A stretch of DNA of 37,070 bases from a virus. Location: positions 1 to 37,070 of IMG/VR virus record IMGVR_UViG_3300020201_000005, one strand, 5' to 3'. Each line of letters opens with the position of its first letter. The stretch's first letter is position 1. The position numbers were made by a program, and so were the translations under genes. The notes beneath the pieces are model-generated. The model was given only the letters and a program-made list of their open reading frames with translations, made no database searches and had not been told where the DNA came from. Below are positions 5,760 through 37,070 of this stretch, in pieces.

Positions 5760-7672
5760 GTCAGCGCCTTCACTGTCCAACCATCGAATGTACAGTTTGC
5801 ATCATCCACATCGCGGTCGTGATAAAACCCGACGCGCGTTCCTGTCAAAAGATCGGCCGGAATGACATACGACAAGATCGGCTTGTCGTCGAGAAAGCAA
5901 TGCAGCAGGTCGCCGCGTACTTGAATTTTCAGCACGACGGGCGTTGAACCTTGAATGTAGTTCTGGATGTTCATCTTCCGCCTGATCCCACCGGTGGTTG
6001 CCGAACTCGCTGAAATCAACTCGATCTCATCGCTGAAAGGCTGTGCGGGTACCATCAACAGCCGCGCCATAACATAGTTGTTGGCATCGATGTAGCGCAC
6101 AGCGATGCCTTGACGAATGATGGCAGTTCCATCTGCAAACGCGGGCGGCGTAACCGTAACCGACGCCTCGACATCCGCCGCGACGTTTTGCGTGGCAAAA
6201 AACGGGGTTAGGTTTGCGCCCGCTACGGATACGGTGTTGCTCTGGATTGTCCATGTCCCCGCGTGTTCCGTCCACGCCCCGCCGAGCGTTGGCGTGTGTG
6301 CGTTCAGTCGCGTTCCGTTGGTGTCGGTGAACGTGTCCGACGCCAACGTTGCCCCTACGGTGAAGATGCGCGGGGCGGGCAAGATTGCGGGCAGCGTCAC
6401 CGTATGCGGCATGATCACCAGATTGTCCCAGAAATGGGTTGACGCCGCGCCGCCCGTCGTCATGAAGCCGACGCCTGTTCCGGTGGTGTTGTAACTGCTG
6501 GCGTCCGTCGCCCAATTCGCCGCCTCGAATACAACGCCGTCAACGGCGACAAGGTACTTGTTTCCATACGCCCAGAGCGTGATGCGATAGGTCGTTCCAT
6601 AGGCGAAGGTGAAAGCGCCAAATGTAACCACGACGTTAGCGTAACTTCCGGTCGCTAACGAGTATTGGTTGATACCGATTTGGTCTCCGCCGCCACTGAA
6701 CGTCCCAACGCATAGAAAGTGAGTCGCCGTGAAGCGAAATGCCAAGCCGCCAAAGCGCGTGCCGCTGGCGGGCATGGTAAAGTCGAATTGGAACATGCCA
6801 TCGGACAGGGTGGGGGTGTTGTTCCGAACGAGTGAGAAGCCGCTCGGCGTCGGCACATAGGCGCGATTGGTCGAAATCCCCCACGTGCCGCGCACCGCCG
6901 TCCATGCCCCGCCCACCGACGTGGTGCTGTTGGCGCGGTCGAAGCGGTCGATGAAATGCGCCATTGCGCCGTCTTGCGCCCACGTCGGTTCATCGTAAAT
7001 GGCGAGTTCGTTAGACGCATGTCCGTTCGGATAGGCGTCCAAATCGCCAAGCGCGCTGTAGTATGGATAAAGCGTTGCCGTTGTATCGGCGTCCTCCCAC
7101 CAGACCACGCGCGCCAACGGATACTGTGGTATGCCGACCTGATCCGTCATGCCGATCCCAATTTGCGTCCCAATCGTGGAGAGCAGCAGCGCCGCCCCGC
7201 GCGAACCAAGCACGATGTAAGCGACGTACTGCGTTGTGCGAGTCGCATAGGTACTCTGATCAATCACCGTCGTGACGCCCGGCGTGATGACGCCAAGACT
7301 GCCCGCGTCGTTCACCCAACCATGTCCTTGGGTGCGCGGATCGGCAAACGACGCTGACGACGCCCATCCAAGCGCAAAGCTGGTTTCCCTGTCTTGGGAG
7401 ATGAAGTCGATTGCCAATGTGCGCCCCGCCACGCGCGCAAAGCCCGTATACACCACTTCGCTGTTGCCCCACGCGACGGACGCGACTTGCGTTCCACCGC
7501 GCAGATAGCCATCGAGTAGTTTCCAGCGCGAGCCGGTGACCGTGCGCCCGCTGCCCGTCGTCAGTGGGTCGGCGCTGCCCGTGAAGCGGTCGAGATACAG
7601 CCCGCCGTCAGCGCGTTTGGAGAGCAGCGTCCGCCAGGTGCCTGTCAGCAGCGCTGCGCCGCGCCGGCTCAT
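5756..7672 (-). CDS. Tail fibre or receptor-binding protein with three jelly-roll-like repeats, 638 aa
   Basis: Three segments share a DRF/DTF start and a GG-W or GS-W turn, with G-TW-I in the second and third: YLDRFTGSADPL near residue 27, FIDRFDRANSTTSVGGAW near 238, and SDTFTDTNGT-GGAWTEHAGTW near 449. This is the pattern of LamG/concanavalin-like beta-sandwich domains found in phage adhesins. The gene lies at the distal end of the tail cluster, just before the lysis-like genes, which fits a receptor-binding protein. The start at 7672 overlaps the previous stop (ATGA). No chaperone or intramolecular protease domain is visible. Confidence 0.7.
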   Translation of the reverse strand: MSRRGAALLTGTWRTLLSKRADGGLYLDRFTGSADPLTTGSGRTVTGSRWKLLDGYLRGGTQVASVAWGNSEVVYTGFARVAGRTLAIDFISQDRETSFALGWASSASFADPRTQGHGWVNDAGSLGVITPGVTTVIDQSTYATRTTQYVAYIVLGSRGAALLLSTIGTQIGIGMTDQVGIPQYPLARVVWWEDADTTATLYPYYSALGDLDAYPNGHASNELAIYDEPTWAQDGAMAHFIDRFDRANSTTSVGGAWTAVRGTWGISTNRAYVPTPSGFSLVRNNTPTLSDGMFQFDFTMPASGTRFGGLAFRFTATHFLCVGTFSGGGDQIGINQYSLATGSYANVVVTFGAFTFAYGTTYRITLWAYGNKYLVAVDGVVFEAANWATDASSYNTTGTGVGFMTTGGAASTHFWDNLVIMPHTVTLPAILPAPRIFTVGATLASDTFTDTNGTRLNAHTPTLGGAWTEHAGTWTIQSNTVSVAGANLTPFFATQNVAADVEASVTVTPPAFADGTAIIRQGIAVRYIDANNYVMARLLMVPAQPFSDEIELISASSATTGGIRRKMNIQNYIQGSTPVVLKIQVRGDLLHCFLDDKPILSYVIPADLLTGTRVGFYHDRDVDDANCTFDGWTVKALT

Positions 7673-8112
7673 CCTAACAAAATCCCGATTTTGAGCAGCA
7701 AATCGGTCGTGCTGGCATACGTCGGCGCGCCGCGCGCCACCAACTGCACATAGAGCGCCCCCGCCGTCACGAACGGCACGCCGCCCGCGCTGACGGACGC
7801 CGTGCCATTATCATTGTAATTGCTGTAGTCGGCGGCGGTGATCGCCACCGTCGCCAACCATGCCGCCGCGAGATCGGCATTGGTTGGATCGAATGCGGCA
7901 TTGTCTGCTGTTGCCGTGAAAGTTGCGTTGAAAAAGACAACATCGATCACGCCGGACTGTTTCGCTTTGTCCACCAAGCCGACATATTGCAGCACGCCGG
8001 ATGGCAGCGAACCGCCAACGCCAAGCGTAATCAGCCCGCCAATGGCGTCGCCAGCGGCATACGCCCCCGCCGTGATCGTCGGCGTGGCTTCAGCCCAAAA
8101 AACATTCGCCAT
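7669..8112 (-). CDS. Virion structural protein, 147 aa
   Basis: Gly/Ala/Thr-rich protein (ITAGAYAAGDAIGGLITL, GVIDVVFFNATFTATADNAAF) with alternating beta-strand character, as in small tail-fibre-base or decoration proteins. It is coupled by ATGA overlap to the receptor-binding gene downstream. No named family is recognised with confidence. A tail-tip or fibre-attachment role is inferred from position. Confidence 0.6.
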   Translation of the reverse strand: MANVFWAEATPTITAGAYAAGDAIGGLITLGVGGSLPSGVLQYVGLVDKAKQSGVIDVVFFNATFTATADNAAFDPTNADLAAAWLATVAITAADYSNYNDNGTASVSAGGVPFVTAGALYVQLVARGAPTYASTTDLLLKIGILLG

Positions 8113-12759: not shown

Positions 12760-13239
12760 CTACCGCGCGCGGCGCTTCAGTTCGCCGTAGTAGCGGCGCT
12801 TCTTCGCGTAGTAGAGGCGCCGAAAAGCTGCGGCGAGCTTTTCGGCGTTCGCCGCGTAGTAGCGGCGCTGGTATGCCGCGATCTTTTCGGCGTTCGCCGC
12901 GCGGTAGCTCCGCAGCTTTTCGGCGTGCGCAGCTTGGTAGCTCCGCTGGTATGCGGCGAGCTTTTCGGCGTTCGCCGCGCGGTAGCTACGCTGGTATGCG
13001 GCGATCTTTTCGGCGTTCGCCGCGCGGTAGCTACGCTGGTATGCCGCGGTCTTTTCGGCGTGCGCAGCTTGGTAGCGGCGCATACATGCCTTGCACTGCG
13101 GACGTAATCCGTCGCGCGTGGCTTTGTCACGGCAGAACGCGGACCGCGGTTGCACGCAACCGTCGGGGTTGGCGCAGCCGTCGCGACGCGAACACAGCTT
13201 GAAATTTGGGGGAATCGGGGTATGATCGGAGACGGTCAT
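12760..13239 (-). CDS. HNH/endonuclease-VII-like zinc protein with 15-residue tandem repeats, 159 aa
   Basis: The N-terminus has paired cysteines (LCSRRDGCANPDGC, then LRPQCKACMRRY) and the AFCRDKATRDGL block seen in phage zinc-finger proteins related to recombination endonuclease VII and HNH nucleases. It is followed by at least six copies of a 15-residue repeat (YRAANAEKIAAYQRS), 45 bp each in DNA. The catalytic HNH or endoVII core that often follows is absent, so this may be a DNA-binding remnant or a variant. It has its own extended -10 promoter, hairpin leader and terminator, and interrupts the tail operon like a mobile moron. Confidence 0.7.
   Translation of the reverse strand: MTVSDHTPIPPNFKLCSRRDGCANPDGCVQPRSAFCRDKATRDGLRPQCKACMRRYQAAHAEKTAAYQRSYRAANAEKIAAYQRSYRAANAEKLAAYQRSYQAAHAEKLRSYRAANAEKIAAYQRRYYAANAEKLAAAFRRLYYAKKRRYYGELKRRAR
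12800..13080 (-). repeat. 45-bp tandem repeats inside the HNH-like gene
   Basis: About six imperfect 45-bp units encode Y-R-A-A-N-A-E-K-I-A-A-Y-Q-R-S variants. One unit is shortened (AEKLRSYRAANAEK). Because the unit is a multiple of three, the frame is kept, and copy number is expected to vary. Confidence 0.85.
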
Positions 13240-21874: not shown

Positions 21875-22555
21875 CTAAAACCGAACCAGCCTTTTTGTTT
21901 CCAATCGTGCTGCCGACATGTCACCCGTCGGCGCTTTGCCGACCGCGTTAGATGGTGATCCGACGCCGCCAGCTTTGAAGAAATGCGCGCGAGCCAGTTT
22001 CGCATCGGCAACCAGCGCGTCGATCTTCTTGGCATCCGGCGCGCCGTCGGCGTTCAACGCGGCAGCGTATGCGTCAGCAGCGTATGCCTTAGACCACGCC
22101 ACGACATCCTCAGCCTCGACCGCGCCCGCCCGCGCCGCTGCCGCGCTGACGGCGCTGTGCCGCTTATCCTCAAGCCGCGCCGCGCGTTCGCCGTCAAGCT
22201 GCGCCTTGAGGTCGTCGCGTTCCTTCGTCGCTTTCAGCGTCGCGTCGGCAGCCTTCTGCACCTCCGATTTGTCGGCGTCATCACGGTTGCGCGCCGCCTT
22301 CAACGTTGCCTTCAGCTCGTCGGTGTTATCAACGCTCAATTCCTTCAACAAATCGGACAACGCTGTCTTGCGTCCGGCGTCACGCGCTTCACCGGCGATC
22401 CGATTCATGGTGTCTTGCGTGATCGCCGCTTGCCCGCCCGTTGTTTCCGGTGGCGTCTCCGTTGGCGCTTCGTCCACACACCATGAACGCCGCTGTGTCA
22501 GATCGACGCTGTAGCGCGCGTCAGTTCGGCGTGCCGCTTGCTTCACCTGCCGCAT
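21875..22555 (-). CDS. Capsid scaffold protein, 226 aa
   Basis: Highly charged, mainly helical protein with a coiled-coil centre (SEVQKAADATLKATKERDDL, GERAARLEDKRHSAV) and a basic C-terminal end (SAARLETKRLVRF), as in phage scaffolds that bind the capsid through a basic tail. It lies immediately before the decoration and capsid genes. ATG 22555 is chosen because AGGAG is 7 nt upstream, while in-frame ATGs at 22561 and 22585 are badly spaced. Its 5' third is duplicated, inverted, at the contig ends. Confidence 0.8.
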   Translation of the reverse strand: MRQVKQAARRTDARYSVDLTQRRSWCVDEAPTETPPETTGGQAAITQDTMNRIAGEARDAGRKTALSDLLKELSVDNTDELKATLKAARNRDDADKSEVQKAADATLKATKERDDLKAQLDGERAARLEDKRHSAVSAAAARAGAVEAEDVVAWSKAYAADAYAAALNADGAPDAKKIDALVADAKLARAHFFKAGGVGSPSNAVGKAPTGDMSAARLETKRLVRF

Positions 22556-22733
22556 ATCCATGCTCCTATCTATAGCCGCCGTCAACCGCCGGCGTTGCGT
22601 ATGCCCGCGTGCGGAATTGCACCGCTGTACTTGGCGCGGGGATTGTCTTTCAAAGTTACTCTCCTACCCACAATTCGCTGCACGGCACGCGCGGACGATT
22701 GACGATTTGCCACGAATGCGGACAATTGATGTG
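22241..22733 (-). repeat. Long inverted repeat, arm B (parent copy)
   Basis: This 493-bp segment covers the end of the minor head gene, the spacer with ribosome-binding site, and the first third of the scaffold gene. The other arm is 36841-36970 plus 1-342. About 130 bp around the scaffold start (roughly 36945 to 106 on the other arm) is identical between arms, long enough for homologous recombination and for assembly ambiguity. Confidence 0.9.
22582..22653 (-). CDS. Possible leader peptide before scaffold, 23 aa
   Basis: TTG at 22653 follows an AGGAGAG box by 5 nt, and 23 codons (KDNPRAKYSGAIPHAG after the start) end at TGA 22584-22582. It fills the 100-bp gap between the minor head gene and the scaffold. 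The frame is also open in the inverted copy, with two amino-acid changes. It could be a leader that couples translation or simply a chance frame. Confidence 0.3.
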   Translation of the reverse strand: MKDNPRAKYSGAIPHAGIRNAGG

Positions 22734-23270
22734 TCGCGGGCAAGGAAATTTATCCACGTATTCCTGATTCACGACGCCCGCGGCGAACCGCCGTGAGCAG
22801 TCCGCGCATGACGGCGGCGGACCAGAGAACACGTAACGCAGCAATGCGCTATAGTTCCGGCTGCGAAACTCGCGGCGCGCCGCTTCTGAGGTCGTCACGG
22901 CTGTATTCAGCGCAATCGAGGTGCGTTTCCATGCGCTGCGCTGCCGCGACCACGTATCTAGGTTGGCATAGTAGTATTGTCGATTGCCGCGCGCGTTCGC
23001 GGCATAGAGGCGTTCAATCTGACTTTCCAGATCGCGGTTGTGCGTGCGCGCGATTTGTGCCGCGTCCGAGTCGGACGCGCGGCGTAGTTCCAGTCGCGAA
23101 TCCGCGCCGGGACTGCGCACGGCTTGGTTACAGCCCGCGGTCCGCGCTTCGAGCGTGATCGCCGTCTGCCATGACCGCGTGCGCATGGCATAGATTTCGT
23201 CTGCAAGCGTGCGTATGTCGTCGTCTGCCATGCGATACAACAGCCCCAGCGTTTGCGTCAGTCTACTCAT
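22656..23270 (-). CDS. Minor head/head morphogenesis-like protein, 204 aa
   Basis: Between portal and scaffold, where SPP1 gp7-like minor head proteins lie. The helical N-terminal part (LTQTLGLLYRMADDDIRTLADEIYAM, IERLYAANARGNRQYYYANLDTW) is followed by a C-terminal cysteine-rich region (CADCSRRF, FPCPRHINCPHSW) that could hold a zinc ion, a known trait of some members. ATG 23270 overlaps the previous stop. A longer in-frame start at 23318 would lie inside that gene. Confidence 0.6.
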   Translation of the reverse strand: MSRLTQTLGLLYRMADDDIRTLADEIYAMRTRSWQTAITLEARTAGCNQAVRSPGADSRLELRRASDSDAAQIARTHNRDLESQIERLYAANARGNRQYYYANLDTWSRQRSAWKRTSIALNTAVTTSEAARREFRSRNYSALLRYVFSGPPPSCADCSRRFAAGVVNQEYVDKFPCPRHINCPHSWQIVNRPRVPCSELWVGE

Positions 23271-23568
23271 CGACCAACGCCGACCACTCGTCGTCCGACA
23301 AGGCTTCGAGGCGCGCACGACCGCGCGCTGTCACCAACGCGAACACCGCGCCAACGGCTTGCATCGCCAGCACTGCATCCGCCTGCCGTTCAGGTTCGAG
23401 CGTTTGGAGGATGACCTCTGGCGACTCGCTGCCGGGGTTGGCGGCAGCATTCAGCATCGCGCCGATTTGCGCCGCGCCCACCGCGTCAACCCGCAGCGCC
23501 GTCAACAATTGTTGTAATTGCGTTCGCTGTTGGCGCGACAACGCCGGAAGGTATCTGCGCTTGGTCAT
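23263..23568 (-). CDS. Hypothetical protein, 101 aa
   Basis: Helical protein (LSRQQRTQLQQLLTALRVDA, LEALSDDEWSALVDE) with AGGAA about 7 nt before ATG 23568. The first 83 bp overlap the end of the portal gene in another frame, and the stop overlaps the next start, a tight arrangement typical of real phage genes. No family recognised. A minor head or assembly role is likely from position. Confidence 0.6.
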   Translation of the reverse strand: MTKRRYLPALSRQQRTQLQQLLTALRVDAVGAAQIGAMLNAAANPGSESPEVILQTLEPERQADAVLAMQAVGAVFALVTARGRARLEALSDDEWSALVDE

Positions 23569-28015: not shown

Positions 28016-28240
28016 ATGGCGAAGCTAAAAGACATGGCGATTAAATACGGCGAAGCGCTAGAAACGCTCATACCGAGATTGATCGTTCAGGAAGGGTCGA
28101 TCTCGGGCGCGGCCAAGTTGTTGGACGTCTATCCGTCTGCGGTTCGTTTTTGGATGAACCGCAATGGATTCGACATGATCGTTGAGCGTCAATTTCGGCA
28201 AATAGTGACGGTCGTGAAGCGCGAAAGCGCGACGTCATGA
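28016..28240 (+). CDS. Small helix-turn-helix protein, 74 aa
   Basis: First gene of the rightward operon. Residues about 27-50 (GSISGAAKLLDVYPSAVRFWMNRNGF) fit a helix-turn-helix of the type seen in small regulators. It probably binds DNA near its own promoter (inverted repeat at 27939-27959). It is coupled to the ParB-like gene by ATGA. Cro- or transcriptional-regulator-like function is inferred. Confidence 0.7.
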   Translation: MAKLKDMAIKYGEALETLIPRLIVQEGSISGAAKLLDVYPSAVRFWMNRNGFDMIVERQFRQIVTVVKRESATS

Positions 28241-29685
28241 AGATTGTCGATGTCCGGCTTGATGGCGGCACGCAGCCGCGGGGCTGGCTGAACGAAGAGA
28301 CAGTCGCCGGTTACGCCGAAGCCTTAGCGCGCGGTGACATATTCCCGCCCGCGCGCGTGGTCTACGACGGCACGAGCTATTGGCTCATCGATGGCTTCCA
28401 TCGTATCGCCGCGGCGCGTAGATGCGCCTGGACGGACTTCGATTGCTCAGTCGATGCCGGCACGTTGGAAGATGCACAATGGCGCAGCTACAGCGTCAAT
28501 GCTGCGCACGGCTTGCAGCGCAGCAACGAGGATAAGCGTCGCGCCATCCGCGCCGCATTGCTGCATCCGCAAGGCGGCAGCAAGTCCGACCGCGAAATCG
28601 CCACGCACGTCGGTGTCAGCCATCCGACCGTCGCCGTAATCCGCGCAGAGCAGGTCGCATCTGGAAAACTTTACCAGATAGACCCCCACCCCCGTCTCGT
28701 GCGGCGCAACGGCACGGTGTACGCACAAAAAGCCGCCGCGCGCGCGGCATCGCAACCCCCCGCCGATCCGGCGGCGGTCGTGCTGCCAGCGGACGATACG
28801 CTGATCCAAGTGGGTGATTTCGTCTTGACTCGTACAGGTCACGTTGGTCAGCCTGCTAACGACTACGCCGATCCGCCTTTCGACGATGACGTGCAGCCTT
28901 TCGACGATGACGTGCAGCATTTCGACGATCAACCGACCATCGCCGAAATCGCCGAAATCGCCGAAATCGACGGCAAGTCGATGCGCAATTATCTCAAAAC
29001 GCGCGGTATCGGGAACATAAATTGGTGTGTTCGGCATGAACGGAATGGCAACGCCGGAACATACAGCGTCTCGATGTCCATATTTGACACCACGAAAAAA
29101 AATCCGCAGTTGGAAATCGCCGTCGCGTCACTGTCAGCCATCGGCTTCGTCGTCCTCGACTCCGGCATGGACATTCAACCCGGCGCGTCAGCCAATCTCG
29201 GCTTCAACGGCGTCGATACACCGATGATTTGGTTCTGCGAGCCGACCCACCCGCACCGCGCGTACCTGCAAGCCTCAGCCACAGCCGAGCGGCAGCGCCG
29301 CGCCGACCGTGACGCGAAGCCCGAACCGCCGTCGCTCGTCCCCAACGGCAGCGCGAACGTCGTCCACCTCCGTGACGCGAAGCCCGAACCGCCGTCGCTC
29401 GTCCCCAACGGCAGCGCGAACGTCGTCCACCTCCGTGACGAGCCGCCGTCAATTCCGACCGCGCACGCCGTCGCTGACGTGCTGCCAGCGTCGCAATCTG
29501 ACCGCGAGGCGCGGATAATCCGTGCGCGCAACCATATCGATATCGCGGTGGAGGCGCTTGAAGACTTGGCAGATGATGCCCAGTTGGCGATTATCCGAAT
29601 CCGACTCATTCAGGCGCGCGAAGACTGCGTAAAAGAACTGTTGAAAGAGATACCACCTCGGCAATTTGTAAAGGGGATCGAATAA
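28237..29685 (+). CDS. ParB-like DNA-binding protein with repeat-rich linker, 482 aa
   Basis: The N-terminal ParB/Sulfiredoxin domain is recognised from ARGDIFPPARVVYDGTSYWLIDGFHRIAAARR, followed by the HTH KSDREIATHVGVSHPTVAVIR (about residues 115-136). No ParA gene is adjacent. The second half has low-complexity repeats (PFDDDVQ twice, AEI three times, a perfect 21-residue duplication) and an unrelated C-terminal helical domain. Such solo ParB-like phage proteins act as regulators, recombination accessories or segregation factors. A palindrome shared with two promoters lies within its coding sequence at 28658-28680. Confidence 0.75.
   Translation: MKIVDVRLDGGTQPRGWLNEETVAGYAEALARGDIFPPARVVYDGTSYWLIDGFHRIAAARRCAWTDFDCSVDAGTLEDAQWRSYSVNAAHGLQRSNEDKRRAIRAALLHPQGGSKSDREIATHVGVSHPTVAVIRAEQVASGKLYQIDPHPRLVRRNGTVYAQKAAARAASQPPADPAAVVLPADDTLIQVGDFVLTRTGHVGQPANDYADPPFDDDVQPFDDDVQHFDDQPTIAEIAEIAEIDGKSMRNYLKTRGIGNINWCVRHERNGNAGTYSVSMSIFDTTKKNPQLEIAVASLSAIGFVVLDSGMDIQPGASANLGFNGVDTPMIWFCEPTHPHRAYLQASATAERQRRADRDAKPEPPSLVPNGSANVVHLRDAKPEPPSLVPNGSANVVHLRDEPPSIPTAHAVADVLPASQSDREARIIRARNHIDIAVEALEDLADDAQLAIIRIRLIQAREDCVKELLKEIPPRQFVKGIE
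28658..28680. promoter_or_regulatory. Palindrome (operator or parS-like candidate), copy 3, inside parB-like gene
   Basis: CATCTGG-AAAACTTTA-CCAGATA matches the core of the palindromes at 807-835 and 36206-36234 (CATCTGG-N9-CCAGAT, centre AAA-C-TTT). Finding it within the coding region of a ParB-like gene, as parS sites sometimes are, makes that protein the first candidate to bind it. Chance recurrence of a 23-bp near-palindrome three times in 37 kb is unlikely. Confidence 0.55.
28876..28929 (+). repeat. 21-bp tandem repeat in parB-like linker
   Basis: Two exact copies of a 21-bp unit (28876-28896, 28897-28917) plus a partial third encode PFDDDVQ. Nearby, GCCGAAATC is repeated three times at 28942-28968 (AEI). 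Confidence 0.9.
29308..29433 (+). repeat. Perfect 63-bp tandem duplication in parB-like linker
   Basis: Bases 29308-29370 and 29371-29433 are identical, encoding the same 21-residue unit (KPEPPSLVPNGSANVV core) twice. The identity at synonymous sites shows recent duplication. The linker length is probably variable. Confidence 0.95.
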
Positions 29686-30693: not shown

Positions 30694-31092
30694 ATGTCGA
30701 AGCAAATCACGATCACGTTGCCCTATCCGCCTTCGGCCAATCGACTGTGGTCGAACGGCGCGAACGGCAGAAAATACAAGACCACAGAGTACTTGTCGTT
30801 TGAATCGAAGGCGCAGCTCGAGATCGCCGGTTTTATCGACAAGACGCTGAGCGGCGATTTATCGGTCACGCTGCGGATCTACCGTCCGCGGCGAACCGGC
30901 GATCTCGACAATCGCGTGAAAGCGACGCTGGACGTTATGCAAGGTATGATCTACAACGACGACTCGCAGATCGTCGAACTGCATTTGTACCGTCTCGACG
31001 ACAAGCTGAATCCACGTGTTGAAGTCAACGTTTGTGAATTGCCGCACGCGCGTGAGATCGTGAGCCTGTCTGGAGTGAAAGGTCGGCGATGA
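30694..31092 (+). CDS. rusA: RusA-like Holliday junction resolvase, 132 aa
   Basis: Dimeric nuclease that cuts four-way DNA junctions. The family signature is clear: YPPSANRLWSNGANGRKYKTT near the N-terminus and the catalytic Asp cluster DLDNRVKATLDVMQGMIYNDDSQIVELHLYRLD. Size matches the family (about 120-140 aa). ATG 30694 is chosen because GGAGG lies 6-7 nt upstream. An in-frame ATG at 30589 would add 35 residues lacking any family features. It is coupled to the initiator gene (4-bp overlap). Confidence 0.88.
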   Translation: MSKQITITLPYPPSANRLWSNGANGRKYKTTEYLSFESKAQLEIAGFIDKTLSGDLSVTLRIYRPRRTGDLDNRVKATLDVMQGMIYNDDSQIVELHLYRLDDKLNPRVEVNVCELPHAREIVSLSGVKGRR

Positions 31093-32108
31093 CCAGCCAT
31101 CTACCAAACTCGTTCCAATATCCGAATGTCTATGTCGATCGTGCTATGGCTTATTTGACCGAGCCGGAGCTGCGCGTCCTGATGTTTACCGTCAGGCATA
31201 TTTTCGGTTGGCAGGATCGCATTGACGCGCGCACTGCCAAGATCAGCCTCAGCATGTACGAAAAAGGTTACGTCTCGAAAAACGGTATGGCTTTTGGAGG
31301 CTGCGGCCTCTCACGACCATCGATCGTCAAGGCGCTGAACAGCCTCGTTGAACTCGGTTTCGTGGAACGCTTTGGTTCGCCAACTGCGAGTGGTCAAAAC
31401 TGGCGCATACCGACCAGCGAACCACGCTGGCAAATCCTCGAATCCCGTGCCGGAACTGGTAAACGCCGTTTACTAGCGCTGGTAAACGGCGTTTACCAGT
31501 CAGACGAAACCCGGTTAACGGCGTTTACTAGCGCTGGTAAACGCCGTTTACCCAAACAAACCCATATACAAACACAAAAAGAGATCAAAGAAGATCAGTC
31601 CGCTAAAGCGGACGCTGCACCTGCGCATTCAAAGAAAAAAAATGAAGCTGCAAGCAAACCGGCGATACCGCTGCTGATCAAAGCGTGGCTCGACGCGCTG
31701 CCCGGCGGCGCCCCTGTGCGTTCGCCGTATGCGAACAAGACGATTCGCGCCGCAGCCGACACACTCGCCCAGCGTGGGATTACCGAAGAGCAGATCGCCC
31801 GCTACACGCGGCAGCTTGCTTCACAAGATTTTTGGCACGCAAAAGTCGTGCCATTTGTATACATGGCTGACAACATCGGCGCATGGTTGGCGGTGCAGCC
31901 GTCATATGCGTCCGCGCCTGCAATCGTCAGCGATACAACCGTCAGCGATACAACCGTCAGCGATACAACCGTCAGCGATACAACCGTCAGCGACGAGGAT
32001 TGGGCGGCATTCGACGCGCTGACGGCGGCAGTGGCGTATGACAAATCGTATGCCAAATCGTTGACATACATTCAGGGATCGCGCGAGCAGCGAGGAGGTG
32101 ACCGATGA
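31089..32108 (+). CDS. Lambda-O-like replication initiator with embedded origin, 339 aa
   Basis: The N-terminal winged-helix domain (YPNVYVDRAMAYLTEPELRVLMFTVRHIFGW, then LSRPSIVKALNSLVELGFVERFG) is typical of phage replication proteins of the lambda O and DnaD-like group. After about residue 120 comes a linker whose DNA holds the iterons, then an A-rich segment, and then a C-terminal helical domain (IRAAADTLAQRGITEEQIARYTRQL). The end includes five VSD repeats (SDTTV) from a tandem repeat. It should bind the iterons and help load DnaB. It is coupled to the DnaB gene (ATGA overlap). Confidence 0.85.
   Translation: MTSHLPNSFQYPNVYVDRAMAYLTEPELRVLMFTVRHIFGWQDRIDARTAKISLSMYEKGYVSKNGMAFGGCGLSRPSIVKALNSLVELGFVERFGSPTASGQNWRIPTSEPRWQILESRAGTGKRRLLALVNGVYQSDETRLTAFTSAGKRRLPKQTHIQTQKEIKEDQSAKADAAPAHSKKKNEAASKPAIPLLIKAWLDALPGGAPVRSPYANKTIRAAADTLAQRGITEEQIARYTRQLASQDFWHAKVVPFVYMADNIGAWLAVQPSYASAPAIVSDTTVSDTTVSDTTVSDTTVSDEDWAAFDALTAAVAYDKSYAKSLTYIQGSREQRGGDR
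31459..31551. other. Replication origin iterons, four 15-bp palindromes
   Basis: GTAAACG-C/G-CGTTTAC sites at 31459-31473, 31482-31496, 31514-31528 (one mismatch) and 31537-31551. Spacing 23, 32 and 23 bp, with TAGCGCTG between pairs 1-2 and 3-4. The arrangement inside the initiator gene, in the linker between its domains, matches lambdoid origins, where O binds iterons in its own gene. The perfect CTGGTAAACGGCGTTTACCAG palindrome around site 2 is given as shape, not as proof of binding. Confidence 0.82.
31552..31660. other. A-rich candidate DNA-unwinding element
   Basis: Directly after the iterons the top strand is poor in G and rich in A (about 31556-31597 and 31630-31660, with an 8-A run). 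A perfect hairpin GTCCGC-TAAA-GCGGAC (31598-31613) lies between. This is the usual layout of an AT-rich strand-opening region next to iterons. The assignment is by analogy. Confidence 0.6.
31926..31993 (+). repeat. 15-bp tandem repeat in initiator gene
   Basis: Four exact copies of GTCAGCGATACAACC at 31926-31985 followed by a partial copy. They encode VSDTT and are probably slippage-prone without frame change. Confidence 0.95.
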
Positions 32109-35370: not shown

Positions 35371-35597
35371 CCGAACGCAAGCCGCAAATGCGTTTCAAGG
35401 TGCTCGCGTACATCCGCACGTACACGACCGCGAATGCTTGCGCGCCGACGCATGACGAGATCGCGCATCATTTTAGGTGTTCGCGCGGTCGTGTCGCAAC
35501 GCTGATTGCGGAACTGCGCTGGTTCGGCTTGCTGGAGCCGGCAACGCGCAAATGGCGCGCGCTGAAGCTCACAAAATACGCCGAGCAAAAATCGTGA
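35367..35597 (+). CDS. LexA-like winged-helix DNA-binding protein, 76 aa
   Basis: RFKVLAYIRTYTTANACAPTHDEIAHHFRCSRGRVATLIAELRWFGLLE resembles the LexA N-terminal winged helix, with no peptidase domain. Small size suggests a regulator that may work as a dimer. The start overlaps the previous stop (ATGA) and its own stop overlaps the next start (TGATG). Confidence 0.75.
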   Translation: MTERKPQMRFKVLAYIRTYTTANACAPTHDEIAHHFRCSRGRVATLIAELRWFGLLEPATRKWRALKLTKYAEQKS

Positions 35598-36190
35598 TGA
35601 AAGTCGAGGAACTGAGCGCAGCCTTTCGCGCAGCCTGCGCGCTGCGTGGCATCGACCTTGAGCGCGGCGCGACGGAGTACCAGGCCTGCAATGCGAAGTC
35701 GGCGCTCCAACGCCGCCGCTACTGGCAGGATCGGGAACGGGAAGGCACGACGCCGGATTGGTGGCATCGGCTCAAAAATGCCAACTCGCGACTGCCGCGA
35801 GATAAATCGTCTGAAAAGGTCAAGGCGCGCTGCTACTATGGCGCGCCAAAGACCAGCCTCGAGAGCATTGCGCTGGAGCGGATTCAGCGCGCCATGTGGA
35901 TGCATTGGCGCGTCCGGCGCTATGGTCGCGCGTGCCTGACACGGCGCGAATACGACGCGCTGGTCGCGTCTGCCGATTTGCGCCGCGAGTCCGATCATAG
36001 CGCCGGGTCGGACAACCAATCGCAGCGCGCGATTGCCAAGCAGCTCGGCATCTCGCAGCCGCGCGTGAGCCAGCTGCTCGCCAACGCCGACCGCGCAATG
36101 CTGTATTTCGAAGAAACCGGCGTCGATGCGCGCTGGATCACGTTCGGCGCGTTTTTACGCTTGGTCGCCCCAGTCGAGACCGACCGCTGA
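35597..36190 (+). CDS. Sigma-region-4-like HTH protein, 197 aa
   Basis: The C-terminal part (LTRREYDALVASADLRRE and QSQRAIAKQLGISQPRVSQLLANADRAM, about residues 117-170) has the ...IAKQLGISQPRVSQLL... helix-turn-helix of sigma-70 region 4 and related factors. The N-terminal helices (about residues 1-100) are not a recognised sigma domain. It may act as a late-gene activator. ATG 35597 overlaps the previous stop. Its last 20 codons are duplicated at 729-790 together with the following promoter. Confidence 0.65.
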   Translation: MKVEELSAAFRAACALRGIDLERGATEYQACNAKSALQRRRYWQDREREGTTPDWWHRLKNANSRLPRDKSSEKVKARCYYGAPKTSLESIALERIQRAMWMHWRVRRYGRACLTRREYDALVASADLRRESDHSAGSDNQSQRAIAKQLGISQPRVSQLLANADRAMLYFEETGVDARWITFGAFLRLVAPVETDR

Positions 36191-36260: not shown

Positions 36261-36289
36261 TTGACACAACGAATACAATCTGCTATACT
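36261..36289 (+). promoter_or_regulatory. Strong sigma-70 promoter, copy 2
   Basis: TTGACA (36261-36266), 17-bp spacer, TATACT (36284-36289) with TGC before the -10. Start expected near 36296. It drives the two small genes at 36368 and 36698 and then the duplicated scaffold fragment across the join. Confidence 0.85.
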
Positions 36290-36697: not shown

Positions 36698-36883
36698 ATG
36701 AACGCGACCGCAGACCTGACGACCGAAGCCCGCCGCCTGTTCGCTGCGGGCGAAAACGAAGCCGGACGCTACGCGCTGGTCGAGGCGCTGGCGCACTTTA
36801 TGTCCATGTACCAGCGCGGCGCCAGCGCCGCCGACCTCGCCACATCAATTGTCCGCGCGTGCCGTGCAGCGAATTGTGGGTAG
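36698..36883 (+). CDS. Small protein with end replaced by repeat DNA, 61 aa
   Basis: The N-terminal 48 residues (MNATADLTTEARRLFAAGENEA, VEALAHFMSMYQRGASAADL) form a plausible helical protein. Its final residues (SIVRACRAANCG) are encoded by the inverted repeat (from 36841), so the original C-terminus has been lost or replaced. AAGGA lies about 8 nt before the ATG. Function unknown. Confidence 0.5.
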   Translation: MNATADLTTEARRLFAAGENEAGRYALVEALAHFMSMYQRGASAADLATSIVRACRAANCG

Positions 36884-36970
36884 GAGAGTAACTTTGGAAG
36901 ACAATCCCCGCGCCAAGTACAGCGGTGCAATTCCGCACGCGGTCATACGCAACGCCGGCGGTTGACGGCG
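36841..36970 (+). repeat. Long inverted repeat, arm A (part before the join)
   Basis: This copies the end of the minor head gene and the spacer before scaffold (22576-22733, opposite strand). Relative to that copy, 27 bp are missing between two near-identical 12-mers (TCAATTGTCCGC and TCAATCGTCCGC), the signature of slippage or recombination between short direct repeats. Upstream of 36841 the two copies are unrelated. Confidence 0.9.
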
Positions 36971-37070
36971 GCTATAGATAGGAGCATGGATATGCGGCAG
37001 GTGAAGCAAGCGGCACGCCGAACTGACGCGCGCTACAGCGTCGATCTGACACAGCGGCGTTCATGGTGTG
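36971..37070. repeat. Terminal 100-bp direct repeat (right copy)
   Basis: This is identical base for base to positions 1-100. It begins just before the ribosome-binding site and ATG of a truncated scaffold-gene copy, so that gene fragment is read across the contig ends. Confidence 0.95.

Follow-up and report, generated by a model that had tools for sequence, protein, structure and literature searches.

The question raised by this locus is whether part of a phage genome can turn around. In the window, by which we mean the whole 37,070-bp stretch of DNA analyzed here, a segment that spans the two record ends is repeated in inverted orientation among the structural genes. The initial annotation proposed that recombination between these two arms would invert half of the genome and act as a structural switch. 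We therefore consider how the repeat is built, where its two copies come from, whether relatives of the phage carry it, and what recombination between the arms would do.

The record carries an exact 100-bp terminal direct repeat (36971–37070, plus strand, identical to 1–100), which gives a circle of 36,970 bp. BLASTN aligned positions 1–342 with 22576–22241 (E = 3e-153) and positions 36845–37070 with 22702–22477 (E = 3e-110), both in inverted orientation; the E value of 3e-153 excludes a chance origin of the inverted repeat. When the two pieces are joined via the 100-bp terminal repeat into a single 468-column alignment, copy A (36845–36970 plus 1–342) and copy B (22702–22241, minus strand) are identical at 447 of 468 positions (95.5%), with one 6-nt gap. 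Both analyses confirm the inverted repeat across the record ends. The mismatch-free stretch described earlier, of about 130 bp, is also present: the longest perfect block, hereafter the core, measures 134 bp (36944 through the circular join to 107 in copy A; 22603–22470 in copy B). The overall identity, previously put at about 97%, is nearer 96%. At its left edge copy A has a 27-bp deletion relative to copy B, located between two near-identical 12-mers, TCAAT[T/C]GTCCGC. Past this deletion, homology picks up again to about 22733, bearing out the limit originally drawn on the B side. On the circle, the arms are inverted within one molecule and the arcs between them measure about 22 kb and 14 kb, which are not halves of the genome.

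Copy B (22241–22733, minus strand) comprises the end of a 220-aa ORF (22656–23318, minus) and the 5′ part of the scaffold gene, and is the ancestral, syntenic copy. The intact ORF (21875–22585, minus; 236 aa as listed, with an ATG-MDMRQ start at 22561) matches the head scaffolding protein family phrog_2303 (E = 1e-6) and lies between the portal side and the major capsid gene. The minus-strand order of TerL, portal, 220-aa ORF, scaffold and capsid provides copy B with its standard neighbours, and an intact parental scaffold gene, as expected if copy A is a partial duplicate, is present in its syntenic place.

Copy A lies on the plus strand, where an HTH ORF and the Prim-Pol gene of the replication-side operon flank it. 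Its left part (36840–36970, plus) extends from the edge bearing the 27-bp deletion, where the junction sequence is GACCTCGCCACATCAATTGTCC, to the circular join. Its right part (1–342, plus) ends where scaffold sequence is fused to a transposase-like fragment, T1. Copy A is thus a truncated second copy with novel junctions, as in a partial duplication: the scaffold part stops near residue 107, the C-terminal half of the protein is missing, and T1 is joined out of frame at the short shared string CTGCCG[A/G]CGCG (CTGCCGRCGCG). Within copy A, a truncated scaffold ORF of 115 aa (16–363, plus) matches phrog_2303 weakly (E = 5e-4) and contains a 2-residue insertion relative to copy B.

Further duplications surround copy A. 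Together with T1 it is flanked by P1 and P2, 200-bp direct repeats that delimit a segment of 1.57 kb. P1 (36125–36325, plus) consists of the 3′ end of the HTH ORF (35477–36190) and a strong sigma-70-like promoter, TTGACA-17-TATACT, at 36261–36289; P2 (726–925, plus) is a second copy, 97% identical, with the same promoter at 861–889. T1 (324–526, plus) is a fragment of an IS3-OrfA-like transposase HTH domain, with 91% identity to T2 (1586–1788, plus), which is the same domain within ORF 986–1837 (HTH_Tnp_1, PF01527). These duplications mark the neighbourhood as a duplication-prone stretch. Recombination between P1 and P2 would excise copy A within a deletion of 1,571 bp while sparing the HTH gene, a single promoter and ORF 986–1837, a route at least as available as inversion. 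ORF 986–1837 itself combines an N-terminal part without assignment with the C-terminal IS3-OrfA-like HTH_Tnp_1 domain, apparently without a catalytic transposase partner, and may represent a captured DNA-binding domain. Between T1 and P2, the minus strand holds a short ORF (590–712) of about 36–40 aa that looks hydrophobic by eye; a plausible RBS accompanies it, and a stem-loop (gacccccttgggggtc) follows.

Two near-identical IMG/VR contigs, recovered from different metagenomes, run across copy B: L004 (27369–20464; 99.1% identity over 6.9 kb) and L005 (27973–21927; 98.7% over 6.1 kb). Copy B is kept at about 99% in both, and to the earlier suggestion that relatives be searched for either orientation both give the same answer, the present one. 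No flipped junction was found among IMG/VR contigs, and a 24-mer from the core occurred in no IMG/VR contig beyond L004, which holds it as copy B. No other IMG/VR contig was found with the left junction of copy A, the promoter or the transposase pattern, and GTDB genomes gave no match to the transposase-domain ORF and none to the core pattern. Inverted repeats of at least 120 bp were absent from 80 loci of TerL relatives (1.0 Mb in total, with L004, L005 and a third contig, L006, among the loci), and two relatives of similar size, G001 and G002, contained none longer than 69 bp over their whole length. Conservation of the arms in the lineage was thus not observed, and with their absence from the compared relatives the repeat is, as far as visible, private and of recent origin. 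A scaffold-protein search in six relatives returned no match but, having had no positive control, is uninformative.

The contig L006 stops exactly 100 nt beyond the point at which copies A and B diverge, a T/C difference beside the 27-bp deletion. As this distance equals the overlap length of the window, it suggests that the left junction of copy A also exists in the L006 sample and stopped the assembler there, assuming a similar k-mer size. In this 99% relative, unrelated DNA (L006:1–1058) replaces the window sequence beyond 27023; by eye it resembles a DNA methyltransferase gene, and reflects either variation between strains or chimerism of the contig.

Besides the 27-bp deletion and a 6-bp insertion, copy A differs from copy B over the 107 shared codons by 13 nonsynonymous changes and 1 synonymous change, with 76 synonymous sites available. 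Judged from the sequence, this pattern fits a copy evolving without purifying selection. The scaffold-gene B alleles of other strains show 0 synonymous versus 3 nonsynonymous differences, numbers that are small; since B alleles also vary nonsynonymously, the decay argument for copy A is not clean. The contrast in mismatches between the left and right halves of copy A is weak (Fisher p = 0.07). In the left half, copy A is about as near to the B alleles as the strains are to each other; it shares one allele with its own copy B only and one with L005 only, and one base is common to L004 only. This closeness, together with the alleles shared with each, indicates that copy A is young. At codons 29, 82 and 101, all four allele combinations per site pair occur among copy A, its own copy B, L004 and L005, so that either the copies or strains have exchanged sequence or mutations have recurred. 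Because copy A differs from copy B almost only by nonsynonymous changes, template-directed, A-specific hypermutation of the kind caused by diversity-generating retroelements was considered, and was dropped as the changes also affect bases other than adenine. General hypervariability of the strains was rejected too: synonymous changes dominate most TerL, portal and capsid comparisons, the exception being the TerL of L006 (5 synonymous, 13 nonsynonymous, mostly in one cluster).

The position of the record ends bears on whether copy A is real. The terminal overlap falls wholly within the perfect core, for which a random break point has a chance of about 0.2% (2 × 35 positions/36,970), so that the inverted repeat itself probably determined where the contig ends. 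Terminal direct repeats often reflect assembler k-mers, and terminal repeats of k-mer length are common (PMC8116208). In practical terms, the case shows how a gene fragment in inverted orientation can determine where a contig ends and pass for a clean terminal repeat. The window ends 127 and 107 nt into the core, not exactly 100 nt on both sides, and these offsets leave details of the assembler break without explanation. As the record ends inside the perfect core, the join within copy A is not independently proven and relies, in place of reads, on how well the two halves fit together and on the coherence of the gene order. Were the closure via copy A wrong, its left and right parts would derive from different copies or strains, with sequence between them perhaps missing. 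Such an artefact would account for the placement of the overlap and for the observation that copy A is covered by no other IMG/VR contig, including when contigs were sought via Prim-Pol, the HTH ORF and DnaB. It does not sit well with the two parts being consecutive halves of one scaffold fragment, each with its own differences from copy B, nor with the way the genome closes neatly into two operons that converge, copy A being flanked on each side by replication genes (helicase and HTH; Prim-Pol). Moreover, L006, from another sample, ends where the left junction would stop assembly. We consider a faulty closure unlikely. Taking copy A as real, its 115-aa ORF could be a functional truncated scaffold, expressed early from P1 as an assembly regulator or decoy: the frame is open downstream of P1 and retains the original RBS and start (TAGGAGCATGGATATG). 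Yet its changes are nearly all nonsynonymous, it has gained two residues, and it ends in an out-of-frame transposase fragment, making such a role extremely improbable.

The proposed structural switch, in which arm recombination interconverts two isomers at appreciable frequency and brings the flipped scaffold, capsid and tail genes under P1, has its geometry in order. The arms are inverted and share the perfect core, the strong promoter at 36261 points at copy A, and recombination would, as stated in the initial annotation, regenerate an intact scaffold gene downstream of it. The phage also encodes a RusA-like resolvase, and the allele combinations at codons 29, 82 and 101 are consistent with exchange between copies or strains. 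In lambda, RecABCD-dependent inversion between identical inverted repeats reaches a maximum of about 3e-4, is as frequent for repeats that are 4% diverged, and has a minimal homology of about 30 bp (PMC2327257). Copies A and B meet these length and similarity needs, so a low background of flipped molecules would be expected, and rare homologous inversion between the arms is possible. The flipped genome would carry the full scaffold gene behind P1, but the late operon would be split, with portal and terminase parted from the capsid and tail genes. Also at odds with a switch are the degenerate state of copy A, which is not a matched arm, the present orientation in both informative relatives, the restriction of the core 24-mer to L004 among other IMG/VR contigs, and the lack of such arms in the related phages compared. 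No site-specific recombinase was recognized among the ORFs scanned with Pfam and PHROGs, several of which had no match at all; neither a dedicated recombinase nor a crossover site was seen, and general homologous recombination would need neither. Nothing indicates selection or regulation of the flip. The inverted geometry of the original reading thus holds, the switch is unsupported, and interconversion at appreciable frequency appears quite improbable. That the population contains two isomers through scaffold-repeat recombination, the late operon driving capsid and tail genes in one and the strong early-side promoter in the other, is very improbable; if true, a gene duplication, and not a dedicated recombinase, would have supplied the means of switching late-gene expression in a phage.

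We favour, as the probable explanation, a recent duplication in which part of the scaffold gene was copied in inverted orientation within a rearranged stretch to give copy A, copy B being the working gene, copy A decaying and inversion only a rare by-product. About 500 bp from the 5′ region of the scaffold gene would recently have been duplicated in inverted orientation and inserted, presumably by illegitimate, microhomology-type recombination, into that part of the replication-side operon in which the duplicated promoter-region and transposase-like HTH fragments are likewise found. Copy B would have stayed the working scaffold gene, and copy A would gather changes without visible purifying selection and probably lacks function. 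Inversion or conversion between the arms, or loss of copy A via P1 and P2, would occur as rare by-products only. Against this duplication and decay, the 134-bp perfect core, set in a copy that diverges elsewhere, could mean ongoing exchange with copy B, or collapse by the assembler. The feature looks ordinary: homologous recombination could occasionally flip part of the genome, and nothing found shows that it does. It is of interest as an illustration, worked through in detail, of duplication and rearrangement within one stretch of a phage genome.

Known systems allow comparison. The G segment of Mu (Gin) and the C segment of bacteriophage P1 (Cin) switch tail-fibre genes by means of crossover sites that are short, together with an enhancer and a dedicated serine recombinase encoded next to the segment; there, as here, inverted repeats bound a phage segment, but crossover sites, enhancer and recombinase were unrecognized in this phage. 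Herpesvirus and plastid genomes isomerize by homologous recombination across long inverted repeats that remain identical to each other and persist throughout the lineage, whereas the present repeat is about 0.5 kb, diverging and unseen in relatives. Phage genomes are also known to acquire partial gene duplications through illegitimate recombination, likewise with a truncated structural gene copy, a short-homology junction and decay. We see no essential difference from copy A, which happens to be inverted and to lie at the contig ends. In a literature search for phage genome isomers arising via inverted repeats, the lambda work was the sole close match: IS10 or oxa pairs around pL similarly form inverted homologous arms, with 4% divergence (PMC2327257). 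The lambda arms are, however, engineered or IS copies around a promoter, whereas one of the two arms in this phage is a gene fragment that has decayed, and inversion is unseen.

Several other features of the genome were observed. On the minus strand, ARAGORN predicts a tRNA-Ala (ggc) at 7992–8086, possibly a false positive, which overlaps the late-operon ORF 7669–8112. Imperfect 45-bp tandem repeats (12829–13093) lie within ORF 12760–13239 (minus), itself weakly similar to families of phage endonucleases, and a ParB-like ORF (28237–29685) contains an exact 63-bp tandem duplication (29307–29432). Finally, palindromic iterons of the GGTAAACGCCGTTTACC type (31458–31552) are located within an O-like replication initiator ORF (31089–32108), as in lambda-type origins.
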